This document shows positions 10,338 through 43,693 of a DNA stretch of 64,000 nt, piece by piece. Made by a program: the position numbers and the translations under genes. This DNA is from Streptomyces sp. Je 1-332 (GTDB lineage Bacteria; Actinomycetota; Actinomycetes; Streptomycetales; Streptomycetaceae). Below the pieces are notes generated by a model. That model searched no databases, was not told the DNA's origin, and saw only the letters and a program-made list of their open reading frames with translations. Positions within the stretch are counted from its first letter, which is position 1, and each line of letters opens with the position of its first letter. Where the stretch lies: positions 62,001 to 126,000 of the forward strand of contig NZ_CP160402.1 of NCBI RefSeq assembly GCF_040730185.1, written 5' to 3'.

Positions 10338-10472
10338 GACGCCGGCGACCCGGTGGCGGCGAGGGCGCAGGCTCAGGCGCAGTCGGCCTGCCCGGTCGCC
10401 GGGCTGCCCAACGCCACCGGGGCCCCCGCACGCGTCCTGCTCAACCTCGGGGCCACCCGGAGGACCGCATGA
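10338..10472 (+). other. Open narH-frame extension after the in-frame TAG
   Basis: In the narH frame, 44 sense codons follow the TAG without interruption and end at TGA 10470-10472. That stop overlaps the narJ ATG at 10469, the same ATGA coupling used elsewhere in the operon. The translation includes CPVAGLPNATGAPARVLLNL, which resembles the FNLFN-type end of E. coli NarH in having a short hydrophobic Leu/Asn motif near the terminus. The simplest reading is that TAG arose by mutation and this is the former C-terminus. Confidence 0.6.
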
Positions 10473-11188
10473 GCGCGCCCGCCGTGGCATCCGTGACCGC
10501 GCCGGTCACCGCCGACGACGTCACGCGGCTGATCGTCGGGCGGTGCCTGGAGTACCCCGAGACGCGGCTCTACGCCGACCTACCCGCCCTGCGCGCGGCA
10601 CTCGACGAGGCGACGCCCGAGGCCGCCGCGCTGCTCGCCGGGTTCCTCGACCACGTCGCGGCCACCGAGCCGCTCGACCTGGGCGCGCACTACACGTCCA
10701 CCTTCGACACCCGTAACCGCCGCTGCCTGTACCTGACTTGGTGGGCGGACGGCGACACCCGCCGACGTGGCATGTCCCTCGTACGCGTCAAGCAGATCTA
10801 CCGCGACCACGGCCTGCCGTACGAGGACGAGGAGCTGCCCGACTTCCTGCCCGTCGTCCTGGACTTCGCGGTCCGCCGCCCGGAGGCGGGCACGGAGCTG
10901 CTCGAAGAGCACCGGGTCGGCCTCGAACTGCTGCGCCTCGCCGTCGCCGCGGCGGACACCCCCTACGCGGCCGTGCTCGAAGCCCTCTGCACGACGCTGC
11001 CCGGCCCTTCCCCCCGCACCCGGGAGGAGGCCAAGGCGATGGCACGCAAGGGGCCGGCACAGGAACTCGTCGGCATCGGCTCGCCCCTGGAGCCCTTCGG
11101 CGCCGTCATCGACCTGCCGTGGCCCACCCCCTCCGCCGCGCACGGAATCCTCGACGCGCACGGAATCTCCGAAAGGCCGTCGGCATGA
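10469..11188 (+). CDS. narJ: Nitrate reductase molybdenum cofactor assembly chaperone
   Basis: 239 residues. NarJ binds apo-NarG and allows cofactor insertion before membrane assembly; it is not part of the final complex. Family motifs are clear: LDLGAHYTSTFDTRNRRCLYL, then RRRGMSLVRVKQIYRDHG and ELPDFLPVVLDFA. The C-terminal third carries the usual acidic/Ala-rich helices. The ATG overlaps the end of the extended narH frame, and its stop overlaps the narI ATG (ATGA at 11185). Position between narH and narI is the standard operon order. Confidence 0.94.
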   Translation: MSAPAVASVTAPVTADDVTRLIVGRCLEYPETRLYADLPALRAALDEATPEAAALLAGFLDHVAATEPLDLGAHYTSTFDTRNRRCLYLTWWADGDTRRRGMSLVRVKQIYRDHGLPYEDEELPDFLPVVLDFAVRRPEAGTELLEEHRVGLELLRLAVAAADTPYAAVLEALCTTLPGPSPRTREEAKAMARKGPAQELVGIGSPLEPFGAVIDLPWPTPSAAHGILDAHGISERPSA

Positions 11189-24595: not shown

Positions 24596-27064
24596 GTGAG
24601 CAAGGACGCGAGTGACCCCTTCGTACATGTCCGGGGCGCCAGGGAGAACAACCTGCGGAACATCGATGTCGACGTGCCGCGGGACGCGATGGTCGCCTTC
24701 ACCGGCGTCTCGGGTTCGGGCAAGACCTCGCTCGCCTTCGGCACGCTCTACGCGGAGGCCCAGCGGCGCTACTTCGAGTCCGTGGCACCGTACGCCCGAA
24801 GGCTGTTGCAACAGGTAGGCGCACCGCACGTGCAGGACATCACCGGACTGCCACCCGCCGTGGCCCTGCAGCAGCGACGCGGGGCGCCCAGCTCGCGCTC
24901 GACGGTCGGCACCATCACCACGCTGTCCAATCTGCTGCGCATGCTGTACTCCCGCGCCGGCACCTACCCGGCCAGGGCTGCTCGGCTGGAAGCCGAGTCG
25001 TTCTCACCCAACACCGCGGCCGGTGCCTGCCCGCAGTGCCACGGGCTGGGCGTCGTGCACGACGTCGCCGAGGACCTGCTCGTGCCCGACCCCGCGCTGA
25101 GTATCCGCGAGGGGGCGATCGCCGCCTGGCCGGGTGCCTGGCAGGGCGCCAACCTGCGCAGTGTCGTGAACGGCCTGGGGATCGACATCGACCGACCGTG
25201 GCGCAGGCTCAGGAAGAAGGACCGGCAGTGGCTGCTGTACACGGACGAGCAGCCCTCCGTGTACATCGAGCCGGAGGAGGCCCGCGTCGACTACGGCTAC
25301 CAGGGCAAGTTCTGGAGCGCCCGCAAGCACGTCATGCACGTCCTCGCCGACTCCAAGAGCGAGAAGATGCGCGAACGGGCGCTCCGGTTCGTCAGGAGTG
25401 TGCCCTGCCCCGAATGTCACGGCAGCGGACTGCGGCCCGAGGCGCTCGCCGTGATGTTCGCAGGACATTCCATCGCCGAGATCAACGCGATGCCGCTCAT
25501 CGAGGTCGTGGCATTGCTGCGGCCCGTCGCGGAGCGGTCCGAGGCCGACGCCACCACGTCGACCGCCCGATCCGGGGAGACGACCGAGGTCGCGGTCCGG
25601 ATCTGCGCCGATCTGGTGGCACGGGTGGATGTTCTGCTCGACCTTGGCCTCGGATATCTGAGCCTCGGGCGCCGCTCGACGACCCTGTCGCCCGGCGAGG
25701 CGCAACGTCTGCGGATCGCCACCCAGCTGCGCTCGGGGCTGTTCGGCGTCGTCTACGTCCTCGACGAACCCTCCGCGGGCCTGCACCCGGCTGACGCGGA
25801 ACCGCTGCTCGACGTGCTGGACCGCCTCAAGGCGGCGGGCAACTCTCTGTTCGTCGTGGAGCACGACATGGACGTCGTACGGCGGGCGGACTGGGTGGTC
25901 GACATCGGTCCCGGCGCGGGCGAGGGCGGCGGGCGCGTGCTGTACAGCGGTCCGGTCGCCGGTCTCGAACGGGTCGGGGAGTCACCCACGAGCCAGTACC
26001 TGTTCGGGCGCGCCCAGCCGCTCGATCACCGCCCGCGCGCCCCGCACGGCTGGCTGCACCTGCGCGGCGTCTCCCGCCACAATCTGCGCGACGTGTCGGT
26101 GGACGTACCGCTCTGCGTTCTGACGGCGGTGACGGGCGTGTCCGGTTCCGGGAAGTCGACGCTGGTGACGCAGGTGCTCGCCGAGGTCGTCCGTGGCCAC
26201 CTGGGCGTCGTCCCCGAGGAGCCCGACGAGGCGCAGCTGGAGGTCGACGTCCAGGACGCGTCGGGGATCGAGTCGTTCGACCGCCTGGTGCTGGTCGACC
26301 AGCGGCCCATCGGCCGCACTCCGCGGTCCAACCTGGCCACGTACACGGGGATGTTCGACGCGGTGCGCAAGCTGTACGCGGCGACGGACGAGGCCAGGGC
26401 GCGCGGCTACTCGGCCGGGCGGTTCTCCTTCAACGTGCCCCAAGGGCGGTGCGAGACCTGCCAGGGCGAAGGGTTCGTCGCGGTGGAGCTGCTGTTCCTG
26501 CCCGGCACCTACGCGCCGTGCCCGACCTGCCGGGGCGCCCGGTACAACGCCGAAACCCTGGAAGTCACCTACCGGGGCAAGAACATCGCGGACGTGTTGG
26601 CACTGTCCGTCGACGCCGCCGCCGAGTTCCTGTCCGCCGTCCCGGCCGCCTCCCGCAGCCTGGAGACCTTGCGCGAGGTGGGACTCGGCTACCTGCGGCT
26701 GGGCCAGCCCGCGACGGAGCTCAGCGGCGGTGAGGCGCAGCGCATCAAACTGGCCACCGAACTGCAGCGAGCTCGCCGCGGCCACGCGCTCTACCTGCTG
26801 GACGAGCCGACGGCCGGACTGCACCCCTCGGACATCGCGCTGCTGTTGCGGCAGCTGCACCGGCTCGTCGACGCCGGCAACACGGTCGTCCTCGTCGAGC
26901 ACGACCTGGACACGATCGCCACCGCCGACTGGGTCATCGATCTCGGGCCCGGCGGGGGCGACGCGGGCGGGCGGGTGGTCGCGGCGGGCCCGCCGGCCAA
27001 AGTGGCGAAGGCCCGCCGCAGCGCCACCGCGCCCTACCTCGCGGCCCGGCTCGCGCGCTCCTGA
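24596..27064 (+). CDS. UvrA paralogue (class II UvrA/UvrA2-like ABC ATPase)
   Basis: 822 residues from GTG 24596. There are two ABC cassettes. Walker A motifs GVSGSGKTS and GVSGSGKST are in the first and second. Signatures are LSPGEAQRLRIATQL and LSGGEAQRIKLATEL, and both cassettes have DEP(S/T)AGLHP Walker B. Zn modules CPQCHGLG...CPECHGSG and CETCQGEGF...CPTCRG are retained. It is about 130 residues shorter than housekeeping UvrA, with a reduced UvrB-binding region, as in UvrA2 and drug-resistance homologues such as DrrC. Inferred role: tolerance of DNA-binding drugs or an accessory repair role rather than core excision repair. It stands alone. Confidence 0.9.
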   Translation: MSKDASDPFVHVRGARENNLRNIDVDVPRDAMVAFTGVSGSGKTSLAFGTLYAEAQRRYFESVAPYARRLLQQVGAPHVQDITGLPPAVALQQRRGAPSSRSTVGTITTLSNLLRMLYSRAGTYPARAARLEAESFSPNTAAGACPQCHGLGVVHDVAEDLLVPDPALSIREGAIAAWPGAWQGANLRSVVNGLGIDIDRPWRRLRKKDRQWLLYTDEQPSVYIEPEEARVDYGYQGKFWSARKHVMHVLADSKSEKMRERALRFVRSVPCPECHGSGLRPEALAVMFAGHSIAEINAMPLIEVVALLRPVAERSEADATTSTARSGETTEVAVRICADLVARVDVLLDLGLGYLSLGRRSTTLSPGEAQRLRIATQLRSGLFGVVYVLDEPSAGLHPADAEPLLDVLDRLKAAGNSLFVVEHDMDVVRRADWVVDIGPGAGEGGGRVLYSGPVAGLERVGESPTSQYLFGRAQPLDHRPRAPHGWLHLRGVSRHNLRDVSVDVPLCVLTAVTGVSGSGKSTLVTQVLAEVVRGHLGVVPEEPDEAQLEVDVQDASGIESFDRLVLVDQRPIGRTPRSNLATYTGMFDAVRKLYAATDEARARGYSAGRFSFNVPQGRCETCQGEGFVAVELLFLPGTYAPCPTCRGARYNAETLEVTYRGKNIADVLALSVDAAAEFLSAVPAASRSLETLREVGLGYLRLGQPATELSGGEAQRIKLATELQRARRGHALYLLDEPTAGLHPSDIALLLRQLHRLVDAGNTVVLVEHDLDTIATADWVIDLGPGGGDAGGRVVAAGPPAKVAKARRSATAPYLAARLARS

Positions 27065-27180
27065 CCACGCCGGAGGGGCGAAGCACCGGTCGCCGCGGGG
27101 CGCGGGGCGCGGGAGGCACGTAACGAGATCCTTCGCTCCCCTGCTCACGAGCAGCCGAGAACCTCAAGCTCGGGGAGGAC

Positions 27181-27245
27181 GGAGAGGGAGGGCGGAGAGG
27201 GAGGGCGGAGAGGGAGGGCGGAGAGGGAGGGCGGAGAGGGAGGGC
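27181..27245. repeat. 13-bp minisatellite, five perfect copies
   Basis: The unit GGAGAGGGAGGGC is repeated five times without a mismatch. The run is purine-only on this strand except for the C. It lies just before a decayed dihydrofolate-reductase-like gene. Strand slippage is the likely origin. Confidence 0.95.
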
Positions 27246-27251
27246 GCGACA

Positions 27252-27625
27252 GTGACATCGTGCGCGAGACGTTCGAGCGCACCGGCGCGAGCGTGATGGG
27301 CAAGCGCATGTTCGACGCGGCGAGCAGCCTGGCCCGAAGATCCGCCCTTCCACACGCCGGTGTTCGCGCTGACGCACGAGAAGCGTGATCCCGGGCCGCG
27401 ACAGGGCCGGATTACCTCCACTTCGTCAACGACGGCATCGAGTCCGCGCTCCATCAGGCCCGCGAGGCCTCCGCCGGCCGGGATGTCCGCGTCGCAGGCG
27501 GCGGCGCGACCATCCTGCAGTACGTGAACCCTGCAGTACGTGAACGCCGGCCTGATCGACGCGTTCACTACCGCCCTCTCGCCCGTGCTGTTCGGCTCCG
27601 GTATCCGCCCGTTCGCAAGCGTCAA
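27252..27625 (+). pseudogene. Dihydrofolate reductase/RibD C-terminal family protein, multiply frameshifted
   Basis: Segments in different frames read as one family: DIVRETFERTGASVMGKRMFD, PFHTPVFALTHEKRD, FVNDGIESALHQAREASAGRD followed by VRVAGGGATILQYVN, and QYVNAGLIDAFTTALSPVLFGSG. One frameshift is explained by a 16-bp tandem duplication (CCTGCAGTACGTGAAC at 27514-27529 and 27530-27545). The N-terminus and the last helix are also lost. It is non-functional. Confidence 0.7.
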
Positions 27626-29759: not shown

Positions 29760-31064
29760 TCAGACCGTACTGAGCGGGTGGGCCGCCGTGGCAGAGCGTG
29801 GGGGCCAGGCGCGGGGGGCGAGGATACCCAGGACATAGGCGCGGGCGACCAGGGCGGGGCGGGTGGCGGCTCCCAGGGCCTGCCGCAGGCGGCTGAGGTG
29901 GTAGTCGACCGTCTGCCTGGACAGCTTCAGCGAGGCGGCGATGTCACTGTTGCTGCTGCCCTCCGCCAGGAGGGACAGGATGCGGACCTGCGCGGCGGTG
30001 AGCGGCGGATGGGCCTCGTGGGCGAGGCTCTGGTGGGTGATGACCGCCCAGACGTGCCGGGCACGGGCAGTGGAGTGGCCGACGGTCGTCAGGTGGAGCC
30101 GCGCGCGGCGTTGTAGCCCCTGGCTGTCGACGAGCACGGCGGATGTCTCCATCCGTCTGGTGCGGCGCGCTATCAGACCGTTCCATCTGCGGTGCAGCCG
30201 GTCGAGGTCGGGGGCGGAGGCGGGGGCGAGCAGCGTGTGCGCGCGGCGGCCCACCAGGTCGGGCAGGCCGAGGTGGAACAGGTCGGCGGCCGCCGCGCTC
30301 GCCTCGATCACGCGTCCGTCGGCGGAGAGCAGTGCGCAGGGCAGGCCGCTGTGGTCGCGCAACGCCTGTAGGTTCTCCTCCGCCTCCTGCCGTTGGACCA
30401 TGGCACGGAGGTGGTCCGTGATGTCCACGTAGATTCCGGCGACGCAGGTCTGCGTGTTCTCGCGCACGGGGAAACGGTGGCCGACCGCCTGACCGGCGCT
30501 GCCGTCCGGGCGGCGGTAGCCGAGGGTGTGGCGCACCTGCGTGCCCCGGGTGAGGATCTCCTGGTCGAGGGCGCGGAACTGGACGGCGTCGGCGGGGGCG
30601 TCGAAGTCCTCGATGCACTTGCCGGCGAGTTCTTCCGCAGTGGTGCCGTAGAGGTGCGCGTAGGCGTGGTTGGCCCACAGGTAGCGTCCGTCCCGGTCCC
30701 GGATGAAGGCGGCGGCCGGGGCGCGGTCGATGAGGTCGGCGAAGGCCGCGTACCGGCGCGGGACTTCGGGGTGTGCGTCGACCTCCACGGCGAGGCCGCG
30801 CGTGGGACTGTGGGCGCGGTTCTCGTCCAGGGGCCAGCTCACGTCGAAGGTGCGGCCGTCGAACCGGGCCTGCCAGCGGCCCTCCTCGGGCGGGCGGTGC
30901 CCCGGGGCCGAACGTTCCTGCTGCAGCCGTTCCAGGAAGCGCTGCGCCGTGCCGGTGTCAGCGAAGGCGCCGCCTCCTCTCTCCAGCACCTGCCACGGCT
31001 CGTCGACCTCCCACCAGAACACGGGAAGGTCCTCGAGAAGTGCCTTGAGGCCGGAATCGTCCAC
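29760..31064 (-). CDS. PAS-domain LuxR-type regulator
   Basis: 434 residues. An N-terminal region of about 100 residues is not recognised. It is followed by a PAS domain (about 105-220; DLIDRAPAAAFIRDRDGRYL, with a PAC-like end AGIYVDITDHLRAM) and a second PAS-like domain (about 230-330; LPCALLSADGRVIEASAAAA). The C-terminus is a LuxR helix-turn-helix (about 365-425; LTAAQVRILSLLAEGSSNSD, then LKLSRQTVDYHLSRLRQAL). It probably senses a small molecule or redox signal and binds DNA directly. It is divergent from the ATP-grasp/dikinase/MFS operon with a large palindrome midway, so control of that operon is inferred. Confidence 0.85.
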   Translation of the reverse strand: MDDSGLKALLEDLPVFWWEVDEPWQVLERGGGAFADTGTAQRFLERLQQERSAPGHRPPEEGRWQARFDGRTFDVSWPLDENRAHSPTRGLAVEVDAHPEVPRRYAAFADLIDRAPAAAFIRDRDGRYLWANHAYAHLYGTTAEELAGKCIEDFDAPADAVQFRALDQEILTRGTQVRHTLGYRRPDGSAGQAVGHRFPVRENTQTCVAGIYVDITDHLRAMVQRQEAEENLQALRDHSGLPCALLSADGRVIEASAAAADLFHLGLPDLVGRRAHTLLAPASAPDLDRLHRRWNGLIARRTRRMETSAVLVDSQGLQRRARLHLTTVGHSTARARHVWAVITHQSLAHEAHPPLTAAQVRILSLLAEGSSNSDIAASLKLSRQTVDYHLSRLRQALGAATRPALVARAYVLGILAPRAWPPRSATAAHPLSTV

Positions 31065-31232
31065 AGCGTTCTCTCCATCCGTATACAGCTGGTTGACGCA
31101 CAGTCATCACGCGAGGCGTATCCCGTCCTGGTCCCGCGCATGCTCGGTTCTCGGCCGAAGTGGGGGCTACCCGCGGGGAATCGCGGGCAGCCAGCGATCC
31201 CTCGCGGAGCACGAGGTCGCCCAACACGGCCT

Positions 31233-31258
31233 GCGACTCAGGCATTTGCCTGAGTCGC
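31233..31258. promoter_or_regulatory. 26-bp perfect palindrome midway between the PAS-LuxR gene and the ATP-grasp operon
   Basis: GCGACTCAGGCA (31233-31244) and TGCCTGAGTCGC (31247-31258) are exact reverse complements with TT between. The site lies 168 bases from the regulator start and 165 bases from the ATP-grasp start. A two-base loop makes an RNA hairpin awkward, so an operator for the PAS-LuxR protein or another dimeric regulator is the better reading. No other gene is seen in the 359-bp gap. Confidence 0.6.
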
Positions 31259-31423
31259 GGGCGCCCCTGATGGCGTTCGCGGGTACCTGCCGACTGGTCC
31301 CCTTGAGTGTGCGGGTGAACACTCCCTGCAACGTACGCCCGGTGATCCGCCCTGGTCTACGCGCGTCACCGCTCCGTGCGACACCACGCCCCGTACCAAC
31401 CGGATGGATGGAGACGAACTTCA

Positions 31424-32797
31424 GTGAGCACGGTGCTGTTAGTGCATGCCAAGGGTGGTCCGCCGCTCGGTCACGTCCTGTCCCGGACGGCCGCGCGGGC
31501 GGAAGTGCACCTGCTGACGCTCAGCGCTCTTCCTCCCGTGGCGGCGGACACCGCCCGGACACTGTGCGCGTCGGTGGTGACGCCCACCGATGCGCAGCGC
31601 TCCGACCTGGTGTCACTGATCGTCTCGCAGGCCGAGGCCGTGGGCGCGAACGCGGTGTTCACCTGCTCCGAGTATGCGGTCGTGGCGGTCGCCGAGGCGT
31701 GCGAGGCGCTCGGTCTGACGGGGGCGGGCAGCGCCGCCGCTCTCGCCCGTGACAAGCGTCTGATGCGGCGCACATGGCAGGAACACGGCCTGCCGCAGCC
31801 CGAGTTCCGGCCGGTCGCCACGGAGGCGGACCTGCACGAGGCGGCCGTTCACCTGCCCTTCCCGCTGCTCCTCAAGGCGGCCTGGAGCGCGGGGTCCACC
31901 GCGCACCAGATCATCCGCTCCCCCCACGAGGTGTCCGCCGCCTGGCGTCGATCGCGTGAAGTGATGGCCGAATCAGCCCTGTTGGGGTACGCGGAGCTTC
32001 ATGTCGCCGAGGCCGAAGCGGACTTCGTGGTCGAGCAGATCGTGACGGGTACCGCTTCGCACTGGTTCGACGAGCCTGGCTGGGGCGATTACGTCAGTGT
32101 CGAGGGGATCGTGGCGGACGGCGTGTTCCGTCCGGTCTGCCTGAGCGGCCGGATGCCCACGGTCGAGCCGTTCACCGAACGCGCGGGGATCACCCCCGCC
32201 CTGCTGTCCCAGGACGCCCAGGACCGGATCGTGGCTCTGGCCCGTGAATCCGTCGACGCTCTCGGCCTGCGCGACTGCGGAATCCACACCGAGATCAAGC
32301 TCGGTGTGGACGGCAGCATGTGGCTGATCGAGACGGCTGCCCGATTCGGCGGCGCGATGACGGTGCCGCAGGTCGAGGAGGTGTTCGGGCTCGACCTGAT
32401 CGGCATGCTCGTCGACCATCTTCTCGGCCGCCCCGTCGCGTGGCCCGAGCAGGCTCTCACCCCGGCGCAGGCACACGGCGCGGCGGGCTCCCTCGTGGTC
32501 CTCGCGGTCGACGGCAAGGGCGAAGCCTGGCAGGACCGCAAGATCTGGGACTTCGCAGCGGTAGCGGCGAACGTGCCGCTCGGAGGGGGCAGCGAGCTGT
32601 CGGTGGTCGCGGAAAGCTCGCTCGCCGACGGCAGCGTCGTGCCGGTCTACGATCCGGCCGCGGGCGCCAACACCATGGCGGCTCTGTGCCTGCTGTCCGC
32701 CACCGACGCGCGGGCGGTGCTCCGCGACTTCGAAACGCTGGTGGACGCCCTGCCCCTGACCCTGCCCACCGCGCGGCCCGAGGCGGTTTCCCGATGA
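31424..32797 (+). CDS. ATP-grasp domain ligase
   Basis: 457 residues from GTG 31424 (GGAG ten bases before). An N-terminal Rossmann-like preATP-grasp part (VSTVLLVHAKGG) leads to the ATP-grasp fold: DKRLMRRTWQEHGLPQPEF, PLLLKAAWSAGSTAHQII (about 147-164) and the metal-binding end HTEIKLGVDG...WLIETAARFGG (E290, E303). This is the carboxylate-amine ligase type seen in L-amino-acid ligases such as BacD and in carnosine-synthase-like enzymes. Predicted reaction: ATP-driven amide or peptide bond formation via an acyl phosphate. The substrate is unknown. The stop overlaps the next ATG (ATGA), so it is coupled with the dikinase. Confidence 0.85.
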   Translation: MSTVLLVHAKGGPPLGHVLSRTAARAEVHLLTLSALPPVAADTARTLCASVVTPTDAQRSDLVSLIVSQAEAVGANAVFTCSEYAVVAVAEACEALGLTGAGSAAALARDKRLMRRTWQEHGLPQPEFRPVATEADLHEAAVHLPFPLLLKAAWSAGSTAHQIIRSPHEVSAAWRRSREVMAESALLGYAELHVAEAEADFVVEQIVTGTASHWFDEPGWGDYVSVEGIVADGVFRPVCLSGRMPTVEPFTERAGITPALLSQDAQDRIVALARESVDALGLRDCGIHTEIKLGVDGSMWLIETAARFGGAMTVPQVEEVFGLDLIGMLVDHLLGRPVAWPEQALTPAQAHGAAGSLVVLAVDGKGEAWQDRKIWDFAAVAANVPLGGGSELSVVAESSLADGSVVPVYDPAAGANTMAALCLLSATDARAVLRDFETLVDALPLTLPTARPEAVSR

Positions 32798-34818
32798 CCG
32801 ACCAGCTGCTGACCGGCTCCGCCGGGCCTGCCACGGACCGCACGGTCGTCGGCGAGAACCTCTCCCTTCCGCTCTTCCGCACCCTCTCGGGCGTCCTGGC
32901 CGGTCATCCGTACCTCAAGGTCGTCGTCGACCGCGTCGAAAACACCTGGCACCTGCTCGACACCGCCGCGCACCCCTTCCACGTCAACTACATCGCCACC
33001 CGCGTCCTGGGCATGGAACTCGCCGCACTGGACGCGGATCTCGACGCGTTCAACGCCTCCGTCTACATGGACCCCGAACGCCGCTTCCTCCTCGGCGTGC
33101 TGTCCCTGCACACCGAGCAGGACCCGGAGGGCCGCGAACGCACCTTCCTCGTCCTGGAGACGACCGAGGCCGACACCATGCACGGTGAACTCCTCGCGTA
33201 CTTCCACCAGTTCGTACGCGCACGCGTCGACGGCAGACTGCCCGTGCTCCTCAAGCCCGCCAACCACGGGCAGGAGGAGGAACTGGCGGCGATCAGCGAA
33301 CTGCTCGTGCCGCGCATCCTGAGCCACGAGCTCTTCGGCTCCAGGACCCGAACGCCGCTCAACCCCGGCGAGGCCACCGGGCGGTTGCGGTACTTCCGTA
33401 CGCACGAGGAGTACGCGGCGGCGGAGGCCGGGCTCGGCTGGGCGGACATCGTGGCCATGCCGTGCCTGCCGGACGACGTTCCCCGGGTGGCCGGATTCCT
33501 CAACACCGCCCCGATCACCCCGCTTTCGCACACCAACGTCCTCGCCTCCGGCTGGGGCATACCCAACGCCATCGTGCGCGACCTGGAACAGCTCGTCGAG
33601 AAGGACCAACTGAACGGCGCATGGGTGCGCTACCGGGTGCGCGAGGACGAGATCTCCCTGGAACGGCTCGACCATGAGCCGGCCCTGCAGGCTCCGGCCT
33701 GGCACCAGCAACGCATACGCCTCGAACCACCCCTGCTGGAGGACGCCCCCGTCCTGGCCCTGCACCGGCTGCGCAGCACCGACCGGGACCGGTACGGCAC
33801 CAAGGCGGCCAACCTCGGCGAGCTGCACCACGTACTCGACAGCCGTACGGCCGACCTGACCACCTTCTACGGCCGGCCCCGTCCGCCGCGCGAGGACCTC
33901 TACGGGCACCTCGCGGCGCGCCTGGGCCTGCACACACCCTCCCCGGCCGAACTGCGCGCCGGTGCGGCCGACTTCGTGGCCACGACGGTCGGCGCCCCGG
34001 AGGGTGTCGCGCTCCCCTTCGCACTCCAGCAGCACTTCCTTGCCTCCTCCCCCGCGCTACAGCAAGGCATCGGCAAGCTCAAGATGGCACTGGAACTCGA
34101 CGCCACCGACGTCCTGGACTCCCTCTGCCTGCAACTCCAGCACCTGATCCGGAACACTCCCGTCCCCGAGTCGGTCACCCGGCAGATCAACCAGGCGCTC
34201 CCCGCCGCCGCGGCCTCGCGCCGGCGCCTGGTGGTGCGCTCCTCGTCCAACGCCGAGGACCTTCCGGGCTTCTCCGCGGCGGGCGTCTACGACTCCGTCA
34301 CCACCGTCCACGGCACCGGCGAACTCATGGAAGCCGTACGCCAGGTGTGGGCCTCCGTGGTGTCACCCCGCAGCGTGCGACTGCGCCACCAGGTCGGCAT
34401 CTCCCTGGACGACACCTACATGGGCGTGATCATCCAGGAGTACGTGCCCGCCTCTCTGGGCGGTGTCCTGGTCACCTGCAACCCGACCCGCCGCGAGGAC
34501 TTCCGCAACGTCTACCTCAACTGCTCCCCCGGATCCCCGGAGCAGGTGGTCGACGGCACGGTCATGCCACAGCAGTACCTGTACAACACGGTGGAGGGCG
34601 GGGGCCGCACCGTCGCCCTGGGTTCCGGGGGCGAAGCCCTTTCCACCGTCAGCCGCGCCCGGCTCGCCGACCTGTCCCTGACCGGGCGGCTGCTGCAGTC
34701 CCATTTCAGCGGGTCACACTCCGGTGGTTCGGAGGTGGACAAGCCGCTGGACATCGAGTGGCTGATGACCGAGCGGGGCGACTTCCGTCTGGTCCAGATC
34801 CGCCCGTACGCGCTGTGA
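32794..34818 (+). CDS. Dikinase-like protein (PPDK_N ATP-grasp after a His domain; glucan-water-dikinase order)
   Basis: 674 residues. From about residue 334 (YGTKAANLGEL) to the end the protein is a PEP/pyruvate-dikinase nucleotide-binding domain: VVRSSSNAEDLPGFSAAGVY (480-499), EYVPASLGGVLVTCNPTRRE and the closing DIEWLMTERGDFRLVQIRPY. Upstream, ITPLSHTNVLASGWGIPNA (241-259) resembles the swivelling phosphohistidine site, with H246 the likely phosphate carrier. In PEP synthase the His domain follows the ATP domain and a PEP barrel ends the protein. Here His comes first and no barrel exists, as in glucan water dikinases. Residues 1-230 are not recognised and may bind the acceptor. It is the middle gene of a coupled three-gene operon. 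Confidence 0.8.
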   Translation: MTDQLLTGSAGPATDRTVVGENLSLPLFRTLSGVLAGHPYLKVVVDRVENTWHLLDTAAHPFHVNYIATRVLGMELAALDADLDAFNASVYMDPERRFLLGVLSLHTEQDPEGRERTFLVLETTEADTMHGELLAYFHQFVRARVDGRLPVLLKPANHGQEEELAAISELLVPRILSHELFGSRTRTPLNPGEATGRLRYFRTHEEYAAAEAGLGWADIVAMPCLPDDVPRVAGFLNTAPITPLSHTNVLASGWGIPNAIVRDLEQLVEKDQLNGAWVRYRVREDEISLERLDHEPALQAPAWHQQRIRLEPPLLEDAPVLALHRLRSTDRDRYGTKAANLGELHHVLDSRTADLTTFYGRPRPPREDLYGHLAARLGLHTPSPAELRAGAADFVATTVGAPEGVALPFALQQHFLASSPALQQGIGKLKMALELDATDVLDSLCLQLQHLIRNTPVPESVTRQINQALPAAAASRRRLVVRSSSNAEDLPGFSAAGVYDSVTTVHGTGELMEAVRQVWASVVSPRSVRLRHQVGISLDDTYMGVIIQEYVPASLGGVLVTCNPTRREDFRNVYLNCSPGSPEQVVDGTVMPQQYLYNTVEGGGRTVALGSGGEALSTVSRARLADLSLTGRLLQSHFSGSHSGGSEVDKPLDIEWLMTERGDFRLVQIRPYAL

Positions 34819-36269
34819 GCGCGCGACGTGGGCGTCCGCGCACCGGCAAAGGGGCGGGCCACGGCCTGACGGACACCGCCCGCCGGATCATCCGCCTCAA
34901 CTACGGCTTCCAGCTGCTGTTCAACTTGCTGTGGTGGATGCCGGTGTTCTATGCCTACCAGAAAGCAGCCGGGCTCTCGGACGGGCAGATCTTCGGCATC
35001 CAGAGCATCTACTACGTGGCCTTCTGCCTGTTCGAGATCCCGACCGGGCTGATAGCCGACCGCATCGGCACCCGCAACTGCCTGCGGGCCGGCGCGGTGG
35101 TCATGACGGCGGCCAACCTGGCTCCGGTGGTCAGCGCCTCGTACACCGGCTTCCTCGTCCACTTCCTCGCCATCGCCGCGGGCCGCTCGCTCACCTCGGG
35201 TGCGGCAAGCGCCTATCTGTACGACGGGTTGCAGGCCGAGCAGTGCGACGAGCATTACCTGAAGGCAGAGGGCACCGCGCGGGCCCTGGGGCTTGCGGCC
35301 AAGGTCGTGTGCTGGCCGCTGGTGGGGCCCTTGATGTCCGCCGCCCATGCGGCCCCCTACGTCCTCAGTGCCGCCAGCGCGGCGGGTTCCCTCGCCTGTG
35401 CCGTCGCGCTGCCCCGGCTTGCCGGAGCGGACGGCGGCACCGGGAAAGCGGCCGAGCGGACGAACGGCGGGCGCAGAAGCGGCGACTTTCTGCGCGACGC
35501 GGGCTCCGCTCTGCGCTGCGTCGCCTCCTCACGGTGGCTGGCCCTGGTGATGGTGCAGGGCGTGGCGGTCTTCACGCTGTCCCGCATCTGCCAGGTCAAC
35601 CTCTTCCAGCCGATCCTGCTGGACCACGGCATCGCGGAGACCTCGCACGGCGGAGTGCTTGCTGCGATGACGGTGGCGGAGGCGGTGACCTCGGCCCGCC
35701 CCCAGTGGCTCAGCCGTCGCCTGACCCCGGTCGCCTGGGTCTCGGTCCTCAGCCTCGTGCTCGCGGCCACCCTTGCGGCCATGACACTCGGCGGCCCCTG
35801 GGCCGTGGTCACACTGCTCTGCCTCTTCGCCGCCGCCGCCGGCTTCGCGTACCCGGTTCAGCGCAAACTCGTGAACGACGCGGTGCCCGCACACGCCCCG
35901 CGCGCCACGCTCCTCTCGGTCGAGAGCACCGTGGACCGTGCGGTGTGCGCACTGGCCGCGGTGGCCGCGGGCGCCTATCTTTCGGCGGGACACCTGGACG
36001 CCCTGCTGTGGCACAGCGCGCTCGCGACGGCGGTGCTGCTCGGAGCCTTCCAACTGATGCTGCGCAGCGGGGTGGTGAAGCGGGGCCCGGTGGCCGCGGC
36101 CCCGGGAGCACCTTCGGCCCCGACCGGGAGTGCGGACACGACGGACGCGGACACGTGCGCCCCGACCGCCTGCACTGCCCCGGCGACGGAACCCGGCAGG
36201 GATGCCCTGCACGACGCGGGCGACGCGGACCGGCTGACCGGAGGTGGAGGCCGCAGGCCCCGGGGCTGA
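34815..36269 (+). CDS. MFS transporter of the ATP-grasp/dikinase operon
   Basis: 484 residues from GTG 34815, which overlaps the dikinase stop (GTGA). About eleven to twelve hydrophobic helices, beginning RIIRLNYGFQLLFNLLWWMPVFYAYQ; motif-A-like FEIPTGLIADRIGTRNCLRAG lies after helix 2. A charged central loop (ERTNGGRRSGDF) separates the halves. The long C-terminal tail is Ala/Pro/Thr/Asp-rich and cytosolic. As the last gene of the operon it probably exports the product or imports the substrate of the two ATP-dependent enzymes, as BacE does for BacD's product. Two hairpins follow. Confidence 0.85.
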   Translation: MSARRGRPRTGKGAGHGLTDTARRIIRLNYGFQLLFNLLWWMPVFYAYQKAAGLSDGQIFGIQSIYYVAFCLFEIPTGLIADRIGTRNCLRAGAVVMTAANLAPVVSASYTGFLVHFLAIAAGRSLTSGAASAYLYDGLQAEQCDEHYLKAEGTARALGLAAKVVCWPLVGPLMSAAHAAPYVLSAASAAGSLACAVALPRLAGADGGTGKAAERTNGGRRSGDFLRDAGSALRCVASSRWLALVMVQGVAVFTLSRICQVNLFQPILLDHGIAETSHGGVLAAMTVAEAVTSARPQWLSRRLTPVAWVSVLSLVLAATLAAMTLGGPWAVVTLLCLFAAAAGFAYPVQRKLVNDAVPAHAPRATLLSVESTVDRAVCALAAVAAGAYLSAGHLDALLWHSALATAVLLGAFQLMLRSGVVKRGPVAAAPGAPSAPTGSADTTDADTCAPTACTAPATEPGRDALHDAGDADRLTGGGGRRPRG

Positions 36270-36372: not shown

Positions 36373-37011
36373 TCAGCGGGAGCGGTCGCCGAGGAACTCG
36401 ATCAGCCGGACCGGGAAAAACGCGGGCCGGTGGGGCCGGGCGACCTGGTACGCCACGTAGCCGAGCGATGCCGCAACATGGGTCTCCTCGGCCGTCTCCG
36501 CCTGGTAGACGACCCGGCAGCGGCCCGAGTCACCCTTCGCGCGCTGCCAGAGGGCGGGAGCCGGTTTGCGTTCCGCTTCCGTCCGGGGGGTGTAGATCCG
36601 GTCACCGAAGTCCTTCCAGGCGAAGGGCGCGGAGCCCACCCACGTGGCATCGACCTCCTTCTTCAGCCTGGCGGCACGCTCCTCGTCGGTCGTGCCCCAG
36701 GAGGACGGGACATTGGTGATCAGGCCGATGCTGATGTGGCGTTCGCGCAGGGCTCGCAGATAGGTGGCCGCACCGGCCTGATAGCTGGTGCTGCCGTCCT
36801 CGGCGGTGTGCACGAGGGTCTCGCCCAGGTCGAAGTACACGATGGGGCAGTCACGTTCGGCGCTCAGCCGCGCGACCGAGGACGTCGCCGTGGCGCCGCT
36901 CGCGTCCGCGGGCACAGCCACACTCGCCGTGGCGCAGAGCATGGTCGACGCCAGGGCCGCACCGAGCGTGATGCTCGTGCGGACCGAGCCCTTGGAGGCG
37001 GATCTGTACAT
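36373..37011 (-). CDS. Secreted HAD-like protein
   Basis: 212 residues from ATG 37011, preceded by GGAGAAGG. A signal peptide (SITLGAALASTMLCATASVA) predicts export. The mature part has a HAD-type motif I, IVYFDLGETLVHTAEDG, with a second acidic position replaced by Gly. Motif II is LITNVP, and a motif III Lys lies in ERKPAPALW. The last motif (YQAETAEETHVAASLGY) lacks the usual Asp pair. The altered motifs mean phosphatase activity is uncertain. Exported HAD proteins are unusual; the role is unknown. Confidence 0.75.
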   Translation of the reverse strand: MYRSASKGSVRTSITLGAALASTMLCATASVAVPADASGATATSSVARLSAERDCPIVYFDLGETLVHTAEDGSTSYQAGAATYLRALRERHISIGLITNVPSSWGTTDEERAARLKKEVDATWVGSAPFAWKDFGDRIYTPRTEAERKPAPALWQRAKGDSGRCRVVYQAETAEETHVAASLGYVAYQVARPHRPAFFPVRLIEFLGDRSR

Positions 37012-37315
37012 GGCGTCGTCGCCCTTCTCCTGGCGCACCACGAGGGTGCGCTTATGTCCAGTCCATGACAGGCAGTTGCCGCATTCCATGCGTTCCATGC
37101 CGTCGGCTGCCTGTCTGGAAGTTCCCTCAACGCTTCGGCGGTCTACCCCGCTCTACCCGTGAACACCACGTGTCACTCGGCTCCCAGACACCGCCCTTGA
37201 ATCCCACGTGATCGCGTCGCGTGACCGCATCCGCCTCTCGGTCGTCACGAAGCCGCCATGAGCTTGTCACGTACGGGCTGGAATGGCGGTCGCGCGACGG
37301 ACGGTTGTGGTGAGT

Positions 37316-39782: not shown

Positions 39783-42700
39783 TCACCAGGTGTATTTCAC
39801 CTTCGCGCTGCATCCGGGCTTAGCGCTGTACTGCGTGCTCGCGCCGAGACTCGTGTCACCGTCCGTACTGGCAGCTGCCCGCAGGTTTCCGGCAGAGCAC
39901 TCAACCTCGCCCGAGGGGCCGGCGTTGGCATCTCCGGCGGACTGGTCAGCTGTGTAGTTGACCCCGGGAGTGCCAGCTCCCGCAGAAACACTGGGGTGGA
40001 AGGAGCCATCGTCGTTGATGGAAAGGCCACCACCGACACATCCGCCGAACATGCAGACTTCGAGACTGCCGCTGGACGCCAGCCCACTCGGGTCGATGCG
40101 GTTGACCGGGTCGCCCGAGGCGTAGAGGTAGGGGTTCTGTTCCTGGCCTGAGGGGTCAGGGCTGTTGAAACGGCCGATGTTGGGGTCGTAGTAGCGGGCC
40201 TGGTTGTGGTAGAGCCCGGTCGGGTCCTGATAGCTGCCAGCGAACCGATAGGGCTGGAGGATCTTTTCGCTGCTCGTAGAGCGGGTGACGCCGCGAGGAC
40301 TGTAGGCATACGAATTCACCTTCGTGCCGGATTCGTCGGCGGTCGCGACGACGGAGCCGAGGGCGTCGGTGAGGTAGTAGTCCGCCTTTCCGTCCCGGGT
40401 CATGGAGTTGAGTGTGCCCTCCGGTTCCCGGTTGAAGCCTGTGTCCACACCGGCAGTTGACGTGGCCGACAGGCCGATCGGGCCGTTGTGGAAGTAGGTG
40501 TCGCCGAGCTTGACGCGCTCGCTCTGGTCGGTCGAGCCGTACTGGCCCTCATACGTCTTGCCGCCCACCGTCAGGGAGGTGAGCTGGCTGTGATCCGACC
40601 ACTTCTCGCCCGTGCGGGTGCCTTCTGGTGTCGGGGCCGCGGCGGTCTCGTGGCCCTCCCGGTCGTAGGACCAGTTGGTGGCCGAGCCGTTCTTCGCGGT
40701 GATCTGCTGGGCGTCGTTGATCGTATAGGTGGTGCCGCGGGGGCAGCCTTTTTCCGTGCCCTGGCTGGTGAGGTTGCCGGCCAGGTCGTAGCAGTACTGC
40801 CAGGACTCGTTCAGCGTGGAGCCCTTGTTCTCCGCCGCGTAGGAGAAGCGGCCCGCCCCGTCATAGCTGTAGGTCGTCTTCAGCCCGGTCACCGCGTCGG
40901 TCTTGGTGCGGATCTTGTTGCCGTCGGTCGTGGCACCGGTGCCGTAGCCGTAGGTGTAGGCGAGGTCGACCAGCGTGCCCTTGCTGGATGTTGCCCTGAT
41001 CTTCTCGGGGCGGCTGGACTTGTCGACGTCGACCTTCTGCACCGTGCCGCCGGGGTAGGCGGTCTCCGTGCGGACGTCGTTGTTGTTGTACTTGTACTCC
41101 GTCACCCGGCCCTGCGGGTCCTTGAGCTCCTTGAGCTTGTTGACCTCGTTCCAGGTGTAGTCGACCTTCCCGGCCGGGTCCTGGTAGAAGTCGACATTGC
41201 CGGCCGCGGTGTAGGCGAGCAGGGTTTGTGAGCCGTCCTGGAGGGTGCGGACGGTTTCGCGTTGGAGCGGGTCGAACTGGTACTTGATGGTGCCGGTGTT
41301 GTCGTCGCGCTGGCGCAGGTTGCCGTCGTCGTCGTAGTAGTAGCGGACCGTGTCGTTGGTGGTGGAGACGGTCTTGATGCGGTCCAGATGGTCGTAGGTG
41401 AAGACCTTCTTGATGCCGCGGCCATCGGTCAGGGTCTCGGTGCGGCCCAGGCTGTCGTACGTGTAGGTCGTCTCCCCCAGCGGCCCCGGCGGGCTCACCT
41501 TGGTCAGGTTGCCCTTGCCGTCATAGGTGAAGGACGTCTTCACCGTCTTGGACGCCGACATCTTCGTCTCGGTCGCACACCGCTGGCCCTCGAAACCACC
41601 GCAGTTGGGCGTGGCCGGGTTATAGGTGTAGGAAACGTTGCCGCCGCCGGTGCCGGTCTGGGCGACCGATTTGGTGTTGCCCGCGGTGTCATAGGTGTAG
41701 CTGGTCTTCTCACCGTCGGCGTTGGTGGAGTCCTTGGGCACATCCCCGCCGGCGATCGTCTGCCAGCTCGTGGCCGACTTCCCACCGGTCGGGGACTTGA
41801 CGCTCTCGAGGTTGTTGCGGGTGTTGAACCCGTAGTCGGACACGTTGCCCGGGGTCGTACCCGACCCCATCGCGTCGGTAGCCGTGTCCACGTTGTGGTT
41901 GGCGTCGAACTTCGTCGACCGCTTGTGCCCCAGAGCGTCGGTGACCTCGTCGACCTGGCCATCCTTGTCGTGCTTGTAGCTGGTGGCGTGCTGTTCGGGA
42001 TCGGTGACCTTCGTCGTGCCCGCCGCCGTCGGCGAGGCGGCGTCGTACTCATACGTCCACGTCGGCCCCGTGTGGCCGGAGCCGTTGAACTCCGTGGCCC
42101 GCAGCATGGACGTGACGCGGTTGGCGCTGTCATAGGTGAAGACGGTGACCCGCTTCTCCGCTGTGGTGATCTTTGTCAGGCGGCGTGAGGAGTCGTAGTC
42201 GAAGGTGGTGGTCTTGCCCTCGGCGTTCGTGGTCTTGTGCAGGTTGCCGGCGGGGTCGAGGTCGAAGACCGCGGTGCGGCCCGCGTGGTCCTTGGCCTGC
42301 CACTGCGAGGCGTCGGTCTTGACCAGGTCGATCCACCGGCCGGATCGGGTCTCGGTCAGCTTGAAGCCCTTGTGCTCGCCGCCCTCATCGTGCTGGGCGA
42401 TCGTGATGGCGCCCTTGTTCTTGTCAGTGACCTTGGTCAGCGTGCCATCAGCGTTGTAGGTGTCCTTGGATGAGGACTTCCAGTTGGTGACGGTATAGGT
42501 GCCGTCCGCGTTCTTCTTCAGCTCCTTGGAGTAGCCCTTGGGCGTGGTGAAGGTGCCATCAGCCTGCTTGCTGAAGCGCAGGCTGTCACCCGAGGCGTCA
42601 TAGAGGACGACTTCACCGTCGAGGACCTGGAGGTAACGCTCATACTGCTGCCACCAGCGTTGGGAGACCTTGCCCCACGGCGCGTCCAGTGAGTTGTAGG

Positions 42701-43193
42701 TGCGCGACAGGCTCAGAGTCTGGCCCACCCCGGCGATCTCGAAGTCGGTCGCGGTCAGCATCAGGTTGCCGGTCGAGTAGTCGACCCGGGCCGTCAGTGC
42801 GTCGGTGATCGCGAAGTTGCTGATGCGGTGCCAGGGCACATTGCCCTGCCTCTCGGGCACGTAGTCGCTGGGTGCCGCACGACCGGACCGGCCGGTACTG
42901 TCACCGCCCTGGGCGCGTTTCTTCTGCTCGGCCCGCCACGCGGCCACCTCAGCGGTGGGCGTGCGCTCGGCCTGCGGTGCGACCGGGTCGTTGTCCCCGA
43001 CCTTCACCGGCGGCATCGTGAACGACGGAGCGTCCTGGCCCCACGCCGAACCCGGATCATCCGCCGCAGCCGCCACACCGGCGACCGGCAGCAACGACAA
43101 CGTCAGGGCACCGGAAGCAACAACTGCCGCCGTCGCCAGGCTGGTTCTGTTCCGAGCACGCGAAAAACGCGCGCCGAAGGCACGTCTGATCAA
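39783..43193 (-). CDS. Secreted RHS-repeat protein
   Basis: About 1136 residues. The true start is uncertain: TTG 43193 has a purine-rich GGGGGGAAG close before it, and TTG 43229 is an in-frame alternative. The N-terminal segment has a basic region and a hydrophobic core ending VAGVAAAADD, a likely signal peptide. About 20 YD repeats follow (TFDYDSSRRLTKI, TYTYDSLGRTETL, FTYDHLDRIKTV), then the RHS-core end: YYLTDALGSVVATADESG, QARYYDPNIGRFNSPDPSG and NRIDPSGL. The last 97 residues are a Gly/Ser-rich domain with several Cys (VCMFGGCVGGGL, EVECSAGN, KPGCSAKVKYTW). No known toxin domain is recognised. RHS shells usually encapsulate a C-terminal effector. Confidence 0.88.
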   Translation of the reverse strand: MIRRAFGARFSRARNRTSLATAAVVASGALTLSLLPVAGVAAAADDPGSAWGQDAPSFTMPPVKVGDNDPVAPQAERTPTAEVAAWRAEQKKRAQGGDSTGRSGRAAPSDYVPERQGNVPWHRISNFAITDALTARVDYSTGNLMLTATDFEIAGVGQTLSLSRTYNSLDAPWGKVSQRWWQQYERYLQVLDGEVVLYDASGDSLRFSKQADGTFTTPKGYSKELKKNADGTYTVTNWKSSSKDTYNADGTLTKVTDKNKGAITIAQHDEGGEHKGFKLTETRSGRWIDLVKTDASQWQAKDHAGRTAVFDLDPAGNLHKTTNAEGKTTTFDYDSSRRLTKITTAEKRVTVFTYDSANRVTSMLRATEFNGSGHTGPTWTYEYDAASPTAAGTTKVTDPEQHATSYKHDKDGQVDEVTDALGHKRSTKFDANHNVDTATDAMGSGTTPGNVSDYGFNTRNNLESVKSPTGGKSATSWQTIAGGDVPKDSTNADGEKTSYTYDTAGNTKSVAQTGTGGGNVSYTYNPATPNCGGFEGQRCATETKMSASKTVKTSFTYDGKGNLTKVSPPGPLGETTYTYDSLGRTETLTDGRGIKKVFTYDHLDRIKTVSTTNDTVRYYYDDDGNLRQRDDNTGTIKYQFDPLQRETVRTLQDGSQTLLAYTAAGNVDFYQDPAGKVDYTWNEVNKLKELKDPQGRVTEYKYNNNDVRTETAYPGGTVQKVDVDKSSRPEKIRATSSKGTLVDLAYTYGYGTGATTDGNKIRTKTDAVTGLKTTYSYDGAGRFSYAAENKGSTLNESWQYCYDLAGNLTSQGTEKGCPRGTTYTINDAQQITAKNGSATNWSYDREGHETAAAPTPEGTRTGEKWSDHSQLTSLTVGGKTYEGQYGSTDQSERVKLGDTYFHNGPIGLSATSTAGVDTGFNREPEGTLNSMTRDGKADYYLTDALGSVVATADESGTKVNSYAYSPRGVTRSTSSEKILQPYRFAGSYQDPTGLYHNQARYYDPNIGRFNSPDPSGQEQNPYLYASGDPVNRIDPSGLASSGSLEVCMFGGCVGGGLSINDDGSFHPSVSAGAGTPGVNYTADQSAGDANAGPSGEVECSAGNLRAAASTDGDTSLGASTQYSAKPGCSAKVKYTW

Positions 43194-43693
43194 GACTTCC
43201 CCCCACAGGAAGACATCCCGCAACCCCAACGGTCACGAGGAGCCCACAACCAACCACACAAGCCACACAAGTTGACTGGCGGTAGCCCCGATCCCTTCCG
43301 GTAAACGTCCAGGAATAAGCCCCTCCCCATAACGCCACCGCGGGGAGACATACGCAGCGCAGAGACAGTTTCCGGTTGGTCATTTGCGAACACGATCTGC
43401 TTTCACCCGGCAAACGTGGCGTGAAAGGGACGGTTAAAACCAGACCCGAAACGGGAGCGCCGCTGCGGCAGCACATCCTGATCGGACCTGACCCCACGTC
43501 CCCGCACAGCGCGTGGACTCACGCTCCTGCCGGTTGCTCTCCCGCCGGCCGGCGGCTTCCGCGCCAGTCGCACCGCTCGTCCCACACCGGTAAGGGCCGT
43601 GCCCTCTTCGGGGTCCCGACGCGGTCCAGCCCGCCGCCCTTGCCGCACCGCCATGGACCGTCTGAGGGACCGTCTGAGGGGCGCTGTGCGTCG

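Follow-up and report, generated by a model that had tools for sequence, protein, structure and literature searches.

Closest Described Systems

The 64,000-nucleotide stretch of Streptomyces sp. Je 1-332 analyzed here (the window; bases 62,001-126,000 in a genome of 8.27 Mb on a single contig) carries three overlapping genes, for an ATP-grasp ligase (LIG), a phosphohistidine kinase (KIN) and an MFS transporter (MFS), opposite a gene for a PAS-LuxR regulator (REG). Several described systems resemble parts of this locus. The biosynthesis of phosphoramidon and talopeptin (tal genes), said to have been described by Baulig in 2019, reportedly combines a dipeptide with a kinase that forms a nitrogen-phosphorus (N-P) bond. 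In the bacilysin system, which is not known to have a dikinase, BacE is the MFS gene, and the window likewise has a BacD-like ligase next to an MFS gene, as in BacD/BacE. Thermolysin and other metalloproteinases are targets of phosphoramidon and talopeptin; FMPI (N-phospho-Phe-Arg, or phosphophenylalanylarginine), produced by S. rishiriensis NK-122, inhibits metalloproteases (PMC6429109; papers with PMC numbers are cited here from excerpts). For phaseolotoxin, a PPDK-like enzyme (PhtL) was proposed to form N-P bonds in a system with the ATP-grasp ligases PhtQ and PhtU (PMC4530439); compared with the window operon, that cluster is larger, and its product is a sulfodiaminophosphinyl tripeptide.

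Our analysis suggests that the locus probably, though far from certainly, makes and exports a sugar-free N-phosphoryl dipeptide, a metalloprotease inhibitor of the FMPI/phosphoramidon class. A dipeptide ligase, a kinase capable of N-P bond formation and an exporter, together with glycosylated sister operons and neighboring M4 proteases, point to phosphoramidate metalloprotease inhibitors. In contrast to the phosphoramidon/talopeptin system, the window operon has no glycosyltransferase for a deoxysugar and adds the PAS-LuxR regulator, the transporter and a predicted HAD-superfamily phosphatase (HAD); lacking the glycosyltransferase, it was not filed as phosphoramidon itself. FMPI is a sugar-free phosphoryl dipeptide, the type of product that LIG and KIN would make. 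Neither an FMPI gene cluster nor the exact REG-LIG-KIN-MFS-HAD set was found in the literature searched (open-licence papers only).

The initial annotation of the locus had proposed a small molecule that is assembled with ATP, possibly phosphorylated, and exported. This fits the evidence and is sharpened here to an N-phosphoryl dipeptide; overall, the interpretation is partly supported. The remark that no described pathway contains the trio holds only for the exact gene set and the open-licence papers searched, because phosphoramidon is made on the same principle, and both phosphoramidon/talopeptin and phaseolotoxin share logic or enzyme types with the locus.

Structure and Conservation of the Operon

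REG (29760..31064, minus strand, GTG start) encodes a PAS-PAS-LuxR regulator of 434 amino acids and is divergent from the operon. On the plus strand lie LIG (31424..32797), a BacD-like ATP-grasp L-amino acid ligase of 457 amino acids; KIN (32794..34818), of 674 amino acids with an N-terminal domain, a phosphohistidine domain bearing His246 and an ATP domain in that order; and MFS (34815..36269), a presumed exporter of 484 amino acids. All four genes are real, and LIG, KIN and MFS overlap by ATGA and GTGA as first described. Pfam assigned ATP-grasp_4 to LIG, PPDK_N to KIN, MFS_1 to MFS, and PAS and GerE to REG. Two parts of the locus had been overlooked, a convergent HAD gene and a palindromic operator between REG and LIG.

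A scan of a genome collection with KIN gave 97 loci, the best 80 of which were used; 67 were from Streptomyces. The neighborhood search that had been suggested for the four genes found REG, LIG, KIN and MFS in all 67, and this wide co-occurrence disposes of the objection that the genes might not travel together. In a few loci the best stretch was shorter than 75% of the query, namely L018, L052 and L056 (REG), L052 (LIG), and L044 and L052 (MFS). MFS adjoined KIN throughout the 67 loci (by a partial match in L044 and L052). L052 also held a rearranged or misassembled operon (8994-9929), where REG abuts the 3' end of LIG (9647/9648) and most of LIG is unmatched.

With the window's own genome counted, KIN was found in 33 of 295 Streptomyces genomes (~11%) and in 26 of 200 genomes of the family, spread over 4 of 17 genera. 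A role in primary metabolism was considered and is unlikely, given the presence of KIN in just 33 of the 295. Besides, LIG and KIN scored below every NCBIfam cut-off in the list, primary-metabolism families included, which answers the concern that these might be primary-pathway enzymes.

We compared all flanking frames within 6 kb, all against all, among the 67 Streptomyces loci and the window (68 in total). HAD and the frames overlying it were present in up to 35 loci, an M4 protease and its overlying frames in 10; apart from these, no flanking family was common to more than 8 of the 68. By this comparison REG-LIG-KIN-MFS is a crisp unit, which counts in favor of the phosphoryl dipeptide. A wider cluster was rejected: the genes flanking the operon in the window (LysR, DoxX-like, luciferase-like, YjbR, UvrA-like) had no consistent place by the operon in the 80 loci and gave scattered weak matches only.

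The Ligase

The closest solved relative of LIG was BacD (3wo1, E-value 1.3e-48), in line with the likeness initially claimed, followed by BL00235 (3vot, E-value 1.2e-11). With PF13535 above its cut-off, an ATP-grasp fold and similarity to characterized L-amino acid ligases, LIG is predicted to be an L-amino acid ligase. It differs from the bacilysin enzyme in scoring 179.7 of 850 bits against the NCBIfam BacD equivalog, far under the cut-off and thus outside BacD membership, and in lacking Trp332.

Trp332 sets the limit of BacD to small N-terminal residues. Excerpts of a review name Trp332 as a key residue of the pocket and BacD as limited to small N-terminal residues (PMC6920838). Where the alignment has no gaps, Gly309 of LIG pairs with BacD residue 332, at which the listed 3wo1 sequence reads Ala; 3wo1 is presumably the W332A variant of BacD. 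Counting near-duplicates, 78 loci had LIG, and 77 of them carried glycine here; the other, L052, was not covered. Replacement of Trp332 by Gly309 should leave room for a bulky N-terminal residue, and the N-terminal residue of the window's product is likely to be bulky. As a BacD-like ligase, LIG could act as the dipeptide-forming enzyme of a phosphoramidon-type pathway.

The Kinase

Structure matches placed a phosphohistidine domain at residues 183-293 of KIN and an ATP domain after it, at the C-terminus (residues 316-674). Plant GWD also has the phosphohistidine domain before the ATP domain, so the GWD-type order first proposed was borne out, the likeness to GWD being one of domain order only. 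An ATP domain and a phosphohistidine swivel domain are common to KIN, rifampin phosphotransferase, PEP synthase and GWD, whereas rifampin phosphotransferase and PEP synthase begin with the ATP domain. His246 and the motifs of the ATP domain were kept in 28 of 28 aligned KIN proteins. The structural matches covered mainly residues 250-674 and left the N-terminal domain (residues 1-180) unmatched; therefore, we make no claim of a new fold for residues 1-180. Assignment of KIN as a PEP synthase or PPDK was rejected, with a best score of 108.2 of 883 bits and the His-then-ATP order against an ATP-first one.

The structures nearest to KIN, rifampin phosphotransferase and PEP synthase, are O-phosphorylating enzymes. 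KIN might thus phosphorylate an oxygen (of Ser, Thr, Tyr or another hydroxyl) and give an O-phospho dipeptide of other function, an outcome we regard as unlikely: it does not predict thermolysin-like protease neighbors, and almost every dipeptide offers a free amine, which cannot be said of a hydroxyl. Among PPDK/PEPS-like enzymes, Cj1418 is a glutamine kinase that forms an N-P bond (PMC10971088), and PhtL and AgnD were proposed as N-P-forming PPDK-like enzymes (PMC4530439). Pas can be read either way, as it forms an N-P bond on an aniline and phosphorylates a phenol too (PMC7500099). Neither TalE nor a phosphoramidon producer appeared by name among the matches listed (120 in each of three homologue lists, names shortened).

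The ATP domain of KIN also matched the RedH (E-value 2e-19) and PigC (E-value 3.6e-19) profiles, far below their cut-offs, as would be expected if KIN, like PigC and RedH, were a ligase that condenses two parts via a phosphorylated intermediate and leaves no phosphate in the product. We find this most improbable, since the PEP synthase and rifampin phosphotransferase profiles outscored both on KIN, PigC and RedH, judged by the matches, begin with the ATP domain, and the unit is compact, with no further conserved substrate-making gene.

Unusually long, open KIN genes were observed at L059 (10001-12364; insertions after residues 348 and 646) and L089 (6552-8807; insertions after residues 297, 348 and 379). 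In Bdellovibrionales/Oligoflexia, a proton-pumping pyrophosphatase (H_PPase) gene followed KIN-MFS at L069 (13386-15803, E-value 3e-178) and L071 (13279-15774, E-value 8e-181); these neighbors could point to pyrophosphate as a product released by KIN, or could be due to chance.

Relatives Outside the Core Streptomyces Set

An EryCIII-like glycosyltransferase was divergent from KIN-MFS-LIG in Amycolatopsis (L067) and Lentzea (L076). Of 12 KIN matches in another genus of this family (g14), 10 were of a type with 47-50% identity, and 7 of these 10 were fetched. All seven of these Kitasatospora-type loci had the order KIN-LIG-glycosyltransferase, again with an EryCIII-like enzyme; they include Kitasatospora mediocidica (L098), Kitasatospora sp. 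MAA4 (L099), Streptomyces novaecaesareae (L095) and Saccharothrix sp. ST-888 (L103). The seven showed no MFS homologue and no REG homologue beyond a match to the helix-turn-helix only in L103. Another locus of the same genus, L101, had a window-like LIG-KIN-MFS instead. A glycosyltransferase beside KIN and LIG in L067, L076 and the Kitasatospora-type loci is what a phosphoramidon-type pathway needs. No deoxysugar genes were recognized by the Kitasatospora-type operon in the frame listing, where most neighbors were not Pfam-scanned; two flanking genes that were scanned (L095, L098) were FAD-binding oxidoreductases.

The KIN-MFS(-HAD) core was also present in Bdellovibrionales- and Elusimicrobia-type genomes. 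MFS adjoined KIN in 10 of the 11 non-actinobacterial loci, and the remaining one (L073) ends soon after KIN. L070 was the only one of them to show an ATP-grasp_4-like gene, divergent and at 21.0 bits against the 27-bit Pfam cut-off; used as a query, this ligase found only itself, so no ATP-grasp gene was seen in this way by the other non-actinobacterial loci.

These ten loci with KIN-MFS and no BLAST-level LIG, and the exported look of HAD, would suit a module for uptake and phosphorylation to which LIG was added later, catabolic in role, in which HAD would liberate a phosphorylated nutrient outside the cell. We consider it very unlikely, as the PAS-LuxR regulator, the BacD-like LIG, the patchy presence (33 of 295) and the glycosyltransferase variants argue for biosynthesis. 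Separately, one Streptomyces lineage without HAD carried, downstream of MFS, an exported-looking protein of ~420 amino acids with no Pfam match (L062, 13318-14568; L064, 13644-14924).

Neighboring M4 Proteases

A thermolysin-like M4 protease gene adjoined the operon in 10 of the 67 Streptomyces loci (L037, L038, L045-L049, L051, L053, L056) and in two further fetched loci, L092 (nearly identical to L056) and L093, at distances of 130 to 1370 bases. The L056 protease carried the Pfam domains Peptidase_M4 and M4_C. We observed three arrangements: on the MFS side in the same orientation (L037, L038, L093, L056, L092), on the MFS side in the opposite orientation (L046, L048, L053), and on the REG side in the opposite orientation (L045, L047, L049, L051). 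The proteases of L037, L038 and L093 were only ~50% identical to that of L056. On a quick KIN tree, which excluded L059 and L089 because KIN is unusually long in both, the M4-bearing loci fell into four groups and required a minimum of six changes.

A set of 27 genomes, all lacking HAD, held 205 M4 genes, and 10 of the 27 had one adjacent to the operon. Under the assumption of random gene placement, 0.14-0.27 loci would have an M4 gene no more than 3-6 kb from an end of the operon, compared to the 10 seen; counted as four lineages, the probability of such adjacency by chance was 1.3e-5 (3 kb) to 1.9e-4 (6 kb), values that serve as a guide only. With one M4 query, no M4 gene was found in HAD-bearing loci or in the window. 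At loci without HAD and M4, eight flanking genes from eight loci showed no protease family in Pfam, three of them matching nothing.

The Predicted HAD Phosphatase

HAD (36373..37098, minus strand; likely ATG start at 37011, 212 amino acids) is convergent with MFS, 103 bases apart. Its N-terminus looked signal-peptide-like by eye, and the protein is possibly exported. Foldseek matched it to 3ib6 (E-value 9.9e-5), MDP-1, GmhB and HisB-N with TM-scores of only 0.40-0.47; the window protein itself had no Pfam match, and sequence support for the family is weak. D61, K149, E172 and E176 were invariant in 13 aligned HAD proteins, so that the fold comes with the nucleophile, the lysine and motif IV of the superfamily.

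Homologues were present in 34 of the 67 Streptomyces loci (~5 kb off in L032), in 35 of 41 rows of the window's clade on the KIN tree, and immediately following MFS in three of the non-actinobacterial loci (L070, L072, L074). This conserved, exported-looking phosphatase could indicate self-protection: LIG would make a bacilysin-like dipeptide antimetabolite, as BacD, its nearest solved relative, is said to do; KIN would inactivate it inside the cell, MFS export the phosphorylated form, and secreted HAD release the active compound outside. We think this improbable. No HAD homologue was found near KIN in 33 of the 67 Streptomyces loci (in L008 the contig ends there) or in the seven Kitasatospora-type, the Amycolatopsis and the Lentzea loci; the glycosyltransferase partners suggest that the phosphate is kept and decorated; and the M4 neighbors are left unexplained. 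What separates self-protection from the phosphoryl dipeptide inhibitor is whether HAD activates a protected compound or destroys an inhibitor.

A Predicted Route to an N-phosphoryl Dipeptide

In the route we propose for the inhibitor, LIG would join two amino acids via an acyl-phosphate. KIN would take a phosphate from ATP onto His246, its phosphohistidine domain would swivel toward the acceptor domain at the N-terminus, and the free amine of the dipeptide would receive the phosphate to give a phosphoramidate, which MFS would export. REG would sense a signal by its PAS domains and act through the palindromic site in the REG-LIG gap. In the window's clade, HAD may remove the phosphoryl group outside the cell, either ending inhibition or recycling the compound.

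The S. rishiriensis NBRC 13407 genome (L011) has REG-LIG-KIN-MFS, and the sugar-free Streptomyces branch would match FMPI in chemistry. About one in nine Streptomyces genomes has KIN to begin with (33 of 295), and the flanks of L011 lack both HAD and M4; therefore, this species link is only supportive.

The gene content and its conservation, the folds, the intact catalytic residues of KIN and the conserved operator were observed; the dipeptide substrate, the N-phosphorylation, the protease target, the direction of transport, the export and role of HAD and the binding of REG to the palindrome are predictions. Several observations weigh against the proposed route. The FMPI producer, NK-122, is a different strain from NBRC 13407, and the missing HAD and M4 genes of the latter count here as well. 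S. halobius (L088) has KIN-MFS-LIG and no glycosyltransferase in the stretch fetched, and BLAST-level LIG was found in none of the 11 non-actinobacterial loci, some of which have short flanks. As for the proteases, the M4 family was picked after the neighbors had been seen, 17 of the 27 HAD-lacking genomes have no adjacent M4 gene, and the window operon has none beside it, the three M4 genes of this genome lying megabases away. Motif I of HAD proteins is usually DxD; in the window's HAD it reads DLG, and with Gly at Asp+2 activity is uncertain.

We also tentatively considered a wider protease-control circuit, which is possible and on balance doubtful. The exported N-phosphoryl dipeptide would inhibit thermolysin-like enzymes, including the producer's own M4 protease in some lineages, exported HAD would cleave the P-N bond and so end the inhibition, and the locus would supply the missing pathway for FMPI, an orphan inhibitor, as a sugar-free sister route to that of phosphoramidon. 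If the dipeptide route is correct, the most compact route to a natural product with a phosphoramidate group would consist of two enzymes, LIG and KIN, readable from sequence in many unexamined genomes; genes for FMPI and a kinase that phosphorylates a peptide amine would be gained, and genome mining for new metalloprotease inhibitors would be opened. The M4 and HAD neighbors would also offer a testable reason for the secretion of protease inhibitors by Streptomyces, namely control of their own or competitors' proteases.

The Operator and Its Likely Regulator

The operator TCAGGCATTTGCCTGA (31238..31253, strand-neutral) lies within 12-base arms around TT at 31233-31258 and is a likely REG site. 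Among 71 divergent REG-LIG gaps, TCAGGCAWWTGCCTGA was found with at most two mismatches in 70 (exact in 32, one mismatch in 21, two in 17, and three in the remaining 1). None of 1,420 mononucleotide shuffles came closer than three mismatches, that is, 0 of 1,420 reached two or fewer. The 8.27 Mb genome of the window has TCAGGCAWWTGCCTGA at one place.

REG has the PAS and LuxR helix-turn-helix domains (Pfam) of a PimM-type regulator, for which the published site is CTVGGGAWWTCCCBAG (PMC9774167). The operator has the GGNAWWTNCC core and the 16-base length in common with that site and differs from it at six positions; with the core shared and these positions different, we reasonably infer, rather than report, that REG binds the palindrome.

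The branch with 57-59% KIN identity showed other placements of REG. In L085, L086, L100 and L102 it was convergent after MFS, not divergent from LIG, and in L087 and L101 it was unmatched within the stretch fetched.

Other Features of the Window

Further features were noted by eye. A respiratory nitrate reductase-like operon with a narG-like start lies at 5218-11188 (plus strand), and a UvrA-like ABC protein of 822 amino acids, of the drug-resistance paralogue kind, at 24596-27064 (plus strand). Short tandem repeats appear in the translation at ~27150-27300. A large RHS/YD-repeat-like protein is encoded at 39783-43229 (minus strand), where the G+C content is lower (~65%).

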